Part shown: positions 12,201 through 15,200 of the stretch, in pieces
How the letters are laid out: every line of letters starts with the position of its first letter
Numbering within the stretch: position 1 is the first letter of the stretch
DNA from: Salminus brasiliensis
Lineage: Eukaryota; Chordata; Actinopteri; Characiformes; Bryconidae
Direction of reading: 5' to 3'
NCBI RefSeq assembly: GCF_030463535.1
Contig: NC_132894.1
Span: forward strand, 27,734,625-27,798,624
Length of the DNA stretch: 64,000 nt
Translations under genes and position numbers: made by a program
The notes under the pieces: generated by a model
Seen by the model: only the letters and a program-made list of their open reading frames with translations
Databases searched by the model: none
What the model was told of the DNA's origin: nothing

Positions 12201-15200
12201 GTAAGGTCAATGCCCTCATTTCGGAACTGACGGCCAACCTCATAGACACGGTCAATACCTCCCACCACTAGCATCTATAGAAACGAAATACCCATCATCA
12301 ATGATGACCCGTCCAAATGCTTGGGAATTATTTTCCAGTTGTTAATAAGGAGCACATTACTGTACCTTATGGTAAAGCTCAGGGGCGATCCTCATGTAGA
12401 GGTTCATATCAAGTTCATTGTGGTAGGTGACAAAAGGTCTAGCCACTGCTCCTCCAGGAATCAAGTTCATCATTGGCGTCTCAATCTACAACACACAAAC
12501 ACACGGCAGTGATGTCAACAGCAGTGCTTCACAGAGCAATCAATCCACCAAATTAATGACAATAAATACTATTGCATTTCACTCTAGTGTCACTATAGAC
12601 TTACCTCAAGGAAGCCAAGCTGGTCCAAGAAGTTGCGCAGGTAAGTAATGATCTTAGCACGTGTCACAAACTTCTGTCTCACAAAATCGTTGAGAATCAA
12701 GTCCAGGTATCGCTGGCGGAACCGTGTTTCCTGTCATGAAGGTGAGGCAAGATTACACAACCCTCAATGATCATCAATGACAAGACATCTTTTTCCACAT
12801 CTTTTACACTTCTAAAACATATGAACTTAATACTGAAATCTTAAAGAGAAGCTCTTTAAGATTGTAAGATCTAAATGCAGCCTATCATGCTTAAAATAGT
12901 CAATTCAGGCTGATGGGGAAAGATACAGATTAGGCAAATACATTAAAAAAAATACTGTAGTTGGGAATATATCCACCTGGTAATCCTCCACATTGTATTG
13001 CAGCTCCTCTTAAATAAGGAACTAGACTAAAGCAGGGATTTCAACTGACCTTGTCTTTCAGGCCAAAGTGGAGGTGAGGAAGCATGTGCAGACATGGCGA
13101 CAGCAGGGTCATCTCAATGGGGATGATGCTCAATTCCCCTTTCTTTGTCTTCCCAGGATTCCCACGGACACCAATAATGTCGCCACGTCTTAACTTATTG
13201 TTGATGTGAACAAAATCGTCCTCCGATTTGTAATTCCTGAAAGGTTTGGCAGTGGAGAGGACACTTATTTGACATGTAGGGAAGGCATAATACTATACAT
13301 AATACAACAGAAGACAGCAGATTACTTGCACAGTTCAGTCACTGTTGTCAACAAGCATCACATGAGTGCAGTCAGAGTAAGAGACGCAGAGGTACGTGAG
13401 CTACCTGAGTAGCTAACATAGTGCGGGTCGGTGTGTTCATTTTTTTTTTTTATTGCTTTAAAATGATGGTGGCCTCAGGAAAATGTACTTTACACTTAAT
13501 TATAAAAGAAGGGGCAAGAGGCAGAGCTAGATGCCAGTCCTACCACCAATTACATAAAACATCTGGCAGAGTGTGCAGTAAAGACTGGAGTGAGAGAGAG
13601 TCTTTCTGAAGGTATTCACAGATTGAGTGGGAGCAGTCATTCAGGATTTTATGAGACATGACAAAACATTATCTCACCCCCAAAGAAAATACCATAAGTG
13701 CCCCTATTCCAGTAATCACGCATGTAGCTGTTGCATCCCACATATGGAGAAGATACCTCAACGTCCGATTGGGAATGTAATCTGATACAGGCGTTTACAT
13801 GGCTATTATTCTTCTATTTAATGATTTATTGGAGGGTTAACCACCTCGTTCAATCAGGCAGAAATTGCATTCAGAATGACCTTGATCAGACACATTTTAT
13901 CCCAATTAAGATATTAGTCAGATTATTTATAGATTATCAGGCTGCACGTGAACATGGCTAATGATGACACATTTGTACCTGGAGTTTGCCATGACCTGCA
14001 ACTTAACTCCCTCTCCTCGCAAGTCATAGAAGAGTAATTTGGCACCTGAGGCCCTCTTGGCATGGACACGACCTGAAAGTCGGGGAGTTTTACAAAAATT
14101 ACAAAGAGTTCATTACGTTAACAAACCCACACTATAAAAACTAATTCTCAGAAATGCATAATGCTCAGCAAAACCTTAAACAAAGCATGTACCTGCCACA
14201 TTGAGCACAACATCTGTTAGCTGGTCCCCTGGCTCTAGGTGATTATATTTTTCAATAAAGTCAGTTAGCGATAAGTCCACATTGAACTTGTGTGGATAGG
14301 GGTCTTCTGCTGTAGACTTCAGAGCCTGAATGGCTTGCGTGCGGATCTTGAAGTATTGCTAAGACAACACAGAGGTATTAGAATACATTAATTTGTACAT
14401 GGTCCATGTGTGCAGAAACAAAAGCAAGACTACAGCAAACATTTACAGTCATCCCACCCAAGTCCTAGGGCTGCAACGACAGTGAGACAGTAACATAACT
14501 CACATTGGGGTCCAGGGACTCCTCATCAGCACCATATGCATTCTGCTGAGCCTTGTCATTGGTCTCCTTGTTCGGCTGGACTTGATCTTTACCCTTTGCT
14601 TCCTTCTCAGCAGCCTTCTTCTCCGCTTTCATGCGCCTCTTCAGCTCACTGAAACCACAAGGGAAGGAAGTGGTGTGAGAGTAGGTCTTGTGATTGTAAA
14701 GACAAACAGTGTTGTAGCTTGTAATGAGCTCACAATCTAAAAAGCACTTAATTACTGTGGTGACAAAAGGTTGGTTGTTTTTTCGGGCATTAGATGTAAA
14801 CACCACCAACCTTTTGTCACCTCTCCAGCGACATCCTTGAATAAGCAATGGCACGGTTTGCTGACAGCGAGGAACAAACGTCTGAGCCCGCAACCCAACA
14901 GCCTGGCACACCTGCTGCCTGGCTGCTCTGACCAGGGTCAACATGCTGAATGTGTCCTATTTAACGAATCAAGAGAACGCACATGTCACACTCATGCCAG
15001 CAGGTGGGCCCACGTATTTTAACCATCACTGAATAACCTTATTTTCAAATAATTACATCAGCTACACGTAGCCAAGTGTGTATTGAACATTTTCTCGTTC
15101 AACTGATTAGGCATTTAGCCCAAAGGCTCTGCAAATAACAGCTGCGCCTAGCTGAAAACCTGTTCATCTGGCTTCTGCGCTGCTAGTTTTATGAATAGAT

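Follow-up and report, generated by a model that had tools for sequence, protein, structure and literature searches.

The 5' splice site of the mitochondrial-presequence exon of kars1, the lysyl-tRNA synthetase (LysRS) gene of Salminus brasiliensis, lay in the middle of a perfect 17-bp inverted repeat. In the predicted RNA hairpin, freeing this donor cost more energy than freeing any of the 13 other donors examined in the gene. The repeat was found in a window of 64,000 nt (the whole stretch of DNA that was analysed, to which the positions below refer). Our preferred reading, advanced tentatively, is that the hairpin arose as a mutational accident and would act as a passive brake on inclusion of the mitochondrial exon.

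The kars1 gene model

With the predicted exons of the minus strand joined, uninterrupted frames of 577 and 608 residues were obtained, and the N-terminal 324 residues of the mitochondrial form matched a lysine--tRNA ligase (6chd_A, E 2e-153). The arrangement was that of a dual-isoform gene, with a cytosolic first exon, a mitochondrial cassette exon and a common exon 3, all in frame (Table 1), and all 12 introns after exon 3 were GT-AG. An earlier reading of the letters alone (the sequence-only reading) had named the gene, the mitochondrial exon and the position of its donor; all three held on the spliced frames and the LysRS match.

Table 1. Features of kars1 and of its donor hairpin in window coordinates (a slash marks a splice junction)
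Feature	Positions	Strand	Remarks
Cytosolic first exon, coding part	17414..17454	-	Donor AAA/GTAGGC
Mitochondrial-presequence exon	14811..14956	-	Acceptor TTAAATAG/GAC; ATG at 14944-14942
Stem, 5' arm	14805..14821	-	Final 11 bases of the mitochondrial exon and initial 6 of the intron; holds donor AAG/GUUGGU
Hairpin loop, 29 nt	14776..14804	-	Inward extension leaves a 15-nt loop
Stem, 3' arm	14759..14775	-	Entirely intronic, ACCAACCUUUUGUCACC
Hairpin-bearing intron, 162 nt	14649..14810	-	In-frame splicing to exon 3
Common exon 3	14504..14648	-	In frame in both forms
Twelve further kars1 exons	9234..14358	-	Frame open to the stop codon; 9234 counted from the translation

Two candidate acceptors, at 14956 and 14945 on the minus strand, were found for the mitochondrial exon. 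With the acceptor at 14945, exon 1 was fused in frame with the presequence. With that at 14956, translation from exon 1 ended at a TGA overlapping the mitochondrial ATG, as described for human LysRS (PMC7600831, in part), and 14956 was preferred for this reason. In the presequence of 44 residues, 6 Arg and 1 Lys outnumbered a single Asp, and Glu was absent, a basic composition expected for a mitochondrial signal.

The 324-residue query was also compared with the species' own genome (1.066 Gb). All seven matches among the best candidates scored fell at the kars1 locus, so that no second kars1 copy, paralogue or processed copy (retrocopy) was seen among these candidates. Pattern scans with exon 3 returned 53 stretches in viral contigs and 293 in prokaryote contigs, none of which was confirmed as a relative.

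Several neighbouring features were recorded. A tandem GCCA repeat at 17471-17518, just before the cytosolic start codon, was probably part of the 5' untranslated region. Upstream of kars1 and on the same (minus) strand, long open frames were present at 27022-28857 and 40106-40789. They resemble nfat5 exons; a Pfam search gave no match for either. The minus strand at 7855-8214 carried a fragment of a transposase, in which a DDE_3 domain was recognised (E 1.2e-09).

The inverted repeat and its fold

The arm at the lower coordinates (GGTGACAAAAGGTTGGT) was complementary to the arm at the higher coordinates (ACCAACCTTTTGTCACC) at 17 of 17 positions across a 29-nt loop, in agreement with the perfect repeat that had been claimed. 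On the minus strand the donor, AAAAG/GTTGGT, followed directly after base 14811, and the 5' arm read GGUGACAAAAG/GUUGGU, in which 11 exonic and 6 intronic bases were paired. The donor was thus inside the stem and its intron was 162 nt long, both as the sequence-only reading had it.

Outward of the arms the first bases, T and T, were unpaired. Inwards, with mismatches allowed, the arms lengthened to 24 nt, of which 22 (92%) were complementary, and the loop shrank to 15 nt. Both mismatches of this extension were G-A in RNA, not G-U.

The 17-bp stem was present in both the minimum-energy fold and the centroid of a 306-nt region. The gain in stability of this region over shuffled sequences was modest (z -1.6, with 4 of 100 shuffles equally good). 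For the bare 63-nt hairpin an energy of -30.4 kcal/mol at 37 C was predicted. The prediction therefore placed the donor within a stable local stem, as in hairpins that mask splice donors.

A part of exon 8 (12425-12438, coding PFVT) shared 14 nt with the exon arm in antisense, probably by chance (E 0.023). Judged from its sequence, the RNA of exon 8 might offer the donor region a further pairing partner.

Predicted cover over the donor

The cost of freeing donor positions -3 to +6 was computed for naked RNA, leaving proteins and the Pol II footprint out of account. In 200-nt contexts it was 16.2 kcal/mol for the mitochondrial donor and 2.6-7.1 kcal/mol for the 13 other kars1 donors. Shorter and longer contexts gave similar results: 16.3 kcal/mol in 100 nt and 18.0 in 300 nt, with the highest other kars1 donor at 8.8 and 6.3, respectively. 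Depending on the context, the kars1 donor ranking second was exceeded by a factor of 1.8-2.8.

The mean over 250 GT sites drawn at random from kars1 was 4.8 kcal/mol (sd 2.6), and none lay above the mitochondrial donor. The maximum of this set equalled the donor's value to two decimals and probably came from that donor itself or from an adjacent site in the stem.

When the letters of the intron arm were shuffled (100 times), the opening cost dropped to a mean of 4.1 kcal/mol, with a maximum of 9.8. This indicated that the cover over the donor depended on the intron arm. Folding of successive prefixes from 14860 gave a consistent picture. For positions -3 to +6, the probability of being unpaired averaged 0.34 with the prefix ending at 14770 and 0.01 with it ending at 14765, and this drop coincided with the emergence of the intron arm. 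Until then, other local folds already kept the donor about two-thirds paired. U1 would therefore have its better window during the time needed to make about 46 nt, if the polymerase footprint is ignored.

At 4, 20 and 45 C the opening cost was 23.1, 19.8 and 14.7 kcal/mol, respectively. Since the cost stayed high and the stem was predicted to be shut throughout this range, both thermal sensing and a thermal switch were disfavoured.

The donor had been called weak, which was true in part. Its predicted pairing with U1 was -6.2 kcal/mol. For the other donors of the gene the values ran from -4.2 to -10.4, and with six of these 13 pairing less well than GUUGGU, the site was not exceptional. Among the 21 GT sites in 14940-14700, the donor after 14811 was the best in frame, the next in-frame sites having U1 energies of -3.8 and -3.7 kcal/mol. 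An out-of-frame donor 10 bases upstream, GAG/GTGACA after 14821 (minus strand), was slightly better (-6.7 against -6.2) and lay mostly within the same 17-bp stem.

Chance and genomic background

Whether the repeat was exceptional depended on the standard of comparison. An order-3 Markov model of the window gave 0.05 non-simple inverted seeds of 15 nt per 64 kb (60 simulations), so that 17 bp was far beyond random sequence. The genome itself was sampled by taking one 10-kb stretch from each of 20 contigs (C1-C20), placed at a round coordinate with its content disregarded. The sample held seven non-simple perfect inverted repeats of at least 17 bp, with spans up to 300, at six loci, or about 30 loci per Mb in these 200 kb. 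The claim that such a match is very unlikely by chance was thus correct against random sequence, but not against the background of this genome.

The six loci were compared with 264 kb (the sample and the window), a comparison that detects abundant families only. L003, and L009 in part, overlapped matches elsewhere in the 264 kb, and the matches of L020 were confined to its flank. L008, L010 and L016 had no matches elsewhere in the 264 kb. The reverse self-matches of L010, L016 and L020 extended over 97-162 nt, which identified them as long imperfect inverted structures; that of the kars1 hairpin spanned its own 63 nt. The plainest lone hairpin of the six was L008 (AT-rich, loop 10).

On these sequence comparisons, one to four of the six loci may be lone hairpins like that of kars1. 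At one to four per 200 kb, the two 17-nt arms would cover roughly 0.02-0.07% of positions. With an assumed 200,000 donors genome-wide, perhaps tens to more than 100 of them would therefore sit in such arms by accident. Within the window, the second-best repeat was a perfect 15-bp one with a 21-nt loop (44080-44130), and it lay inside a dispersed repeat.

A proposed passive brake and the alternatives to it

In the mechanism that we propose, 17 nt (perhaps 24) of the end of the mitochondrial exon would have been copied in reverse complement into the next intron, a few dozen bases away. Most simply, this would have been one template-switch error while the DNA was being replicated. The copies would pair with each other in the nascent RNA, and the mitochondrial donor would lie midway along the resulting stem. 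From the point at which about 46-52 nt of the intron had been transcribed, U1 could use the donor only by opening this structure, at a cost of about 16 kcal/mol, and for this reason the hairpin should act as a passive brake. Joining of exon 1 to exon 3, which gives cytosolic LysRS, would become more frequent, and the mitochondrial form would be made only if U1 bound first or helicases opened the stem. The real effect must be smaller than this or be countered, because a strong brake would starve the sole source of mitochondrial LysRS that was seen.

In the parts of PMC2275289 used here, Solnick and Lee are reported to have inhibited splicing with inverted repeats in vitro, but in vivo only if the stem exceeded 50 nt. 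Larger loops were suggested as one reason for the failure in vivo (PMC2275289). The kars1 loop is short, unlike the larger loops of those tests, and an effect on splicing is therefore plausible.

The main rival to the passive brake is that the hairpin is an inert passenger. It would be a copying accident made harmless by U1 loading on the nascent transcript and by helicases, with other signals setting the choice of exon. The density of perfect repeats of at least 17 bp in the 200-kb sample, with one to four of the six loci possibly lone hairpins, is as expected from this, and stems below 50 nt were weak in vivo (PMC2275289, in part). With kars1 seen at a single locus and its frames uninterrupted, the mitochondrial exon presumably still works. 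On the other hand, the loop is just 29 nt long and the opening cost exceeds the second-highest of the gene by a factor of 1.8-2.8. Donor hairpins at tau exon 10 and SMN2 exon 7 do matter, according to the part of PMC11802352 consulted. We regard the inert passenger as a serious contender, though on balance an unlikely one.

It is improbable that the hairpin is a selected regulator, kept to set the ratio of cytosolic to mitochondrial LysRS and opened by a helicase or an RNA-binding protein on mitochondrial demand. The stem does cover both the in-frame donor and most of GAG/GTGACA with its slightly better U1 pairing, and the tau exon 10 donor hairpin helps to balance isoforms (PMC11802352, in part). 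However, a perfect stem at -30.4 kcal/mol is unlike the HIV-1 donor hairpin at -7.1 kcal/mol (from another program), in which added stability is harmful (PMC4974535, in part). The stem is also predicted to stay shut from 4 to 45 C, and the mismatches of its inner extension are G-A instead of G-U.

A bolder proposal is that one template-switch mutation put a hairpin over the donor in a single step, and that this hairpin now determines the ratio of cytosolic to mitochondrial product from the only LysRS gene seen in the genome. The splicing switch would then have been born whole and not through gradual pairing. We consider this a long shot.

Two further roles for the duplex are very unlikely. In glutamate-receptor transcripts an A-to-I editing site adjoins a 5' splice site, and by analogy the duplex at the exon end might be an editing substrate. 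The four adenosines directly before the donor do sit in perfect duplex, but 17 bp is short for efficient A-to-I editing. Alternatively, a blocked donor might cause retention of the 162-nt intron, adding 54 residues to the precursor. The intron (14649-14810, minus strand) consisted of 54 codons without a stop in the frame of the mitochondrial exon. Such an open frame has a probability of 0.11 by chance for 162 nt of that composition (20,000 trials of first-order random sequence), and human LysRS isoforms differ instead in whether exon 2 is included or skipped (PMC7600831, in part).

Origin of the repeat

For the origin of the repeat that would form the brake, template-switch copying of the exon end into the intron was the simplest explanation and, on the sequence, the most likely one. 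The repeat had the form expected of such an event, a near and perfect reverse-complement copy of plausible length (17 nt perfect, or 24 nt at 22/24). We infer that the exon copy is the likelier original, since it encodes presequence.

Template switches produce perfect inverted repeats, which are enriched in introns (PMC7954356). Great-ape comparisons yielded 4017 significant events, of which 1503 were gold-standard ones with a median copied length of 12 and a maximum of 128 (PMC7954356). Template switching has also been proposed as a source of RNA hairpins (PMC8794818). As far as these sources were consulted, the kars1 repeat resembles the known ones in being a close, perfect reverse-complement copy, in lying in an intron and in falling within the reported range of lengths (PMC7954356, PMC8794818). 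The known switches were inferred through related or ancestral sequences, whereas the kars1 repeat was analysed within one genome.

An origin from a MITE, in which a small transposon would have inserted at the end of the exon and supplied the arms as its terminal inverted repeats, was the least probable of all. The 17-mer was searched for in the whole genome (1.07 Gb, at most one mismatch) and occurred at 411 places, against 19 for the reversed control. Among the best 100 of the 411, ordered by mismatch, the sole exact places were its own two arms, and 90 of the 100 lay in satellite-like sequence on contig C25. As no further exact copy in the 1.07 Gb was among the matches listed, the arm is not a known transposon end. 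Seven one-mismatch places (from ten loci tried) had flanks without evident likeness to the hairpin by eye. The outer flanks, ATTACTGT and TCTCCAGC, contained no target-site duplication, and in the 264 kb the hairpin matched itself alone at E 1e-3. Neither mark of the terminal inverted repeats of a MITE was therefore present, that is, other exact genome copies (among the matches listed) or a target-site duplication. The sequence-only reading had seen no transposon ends here, and the genome-wide pattern search, the flanks and the 264-kb comparison all pointed the same way. What spoke for a MITE was indirect. L003 and the repeat at 44080-44130 have inverted structure and match many places in the 264 kb, and a weak Rfam match was to mir-548, a transposon-derived family.

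A microRNA precursor was rejected as well, because every Rfam match (3 matches, then 12) was far below its gathering score. The best, to mir-872, scored 26 bits against 75 (E 0.0015, 181-base search), and that to mir-548 scored 23.8 bits against 90.

The matches listed on contig C25 formed satellite-like arrays with GGTGACAAAAGGTAGGT at 17.647-17.681 Mb and 21.158-21.207 Mb. The sequence was on the plus strand in the first array and on the minus strand in the second, with spacings often of about 250 and 417 bases.

Significance and comparison with known systems

If the hairpin acts, it would control the supply of mitochondrial LysRS from an apparently single-copy gene. It would then also be a natural test of nascent-RNA folding as a limit on U1, with a short loop, a perfect stem and one good in-frame donor. 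If it is inert, it would be a counterexample, in which a predicted donor cover of 16 kcal/mol is harmless in vivo.

No report of a kars1 donor hairpin was found among the titles and abstracts of the best literature matches. In human, the LysRS isoforms arise by inclusion or skipping of exon 2, and inclusion stops translation from exon 1 and brings a new ATG into use (PMC7600831). The mitochondrial signal of human KARS1 is located in exon 2 (PMC8251883). To the extent that these sources were consulted, the fish gene is alike in the order of exon 1, mitochondrial exon and exon 3 and, with the acceptor at 14956, in the stop and new ATG. The parts of PMC7600831 and PMC8251883 consulted make no mention of a donor hairpin in the human gene.

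Closer parallels to the hairpin itself are found in other genes. Local structures at the donors of MAPT (tau) exon 10 and SMN2 exon 7 hinder their recognition (PMC11802352), and the kars1 hairpin shares with them a local fold that covers the 5' splice site. In the part of PMC11802352 consulted, the MAPT and SMN2 hairpins are functionally studied ones, whereas the perfect 17-bp stem of kars1 is known from sequence and prediction. The major splice donor of HIV-1 likewise lies in a stem-loop, of -7.1 kcal/mol, and added stability lowers its splicing (PMC4974535, in part). The kars1 hairpin, at -30.4 kcal/mol, is predicted to be far more stable, although the two energies come from different programs. 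By this modelling, the kars1 hairpin is a predicted further case of a hairpin that masks a 5' splice site.
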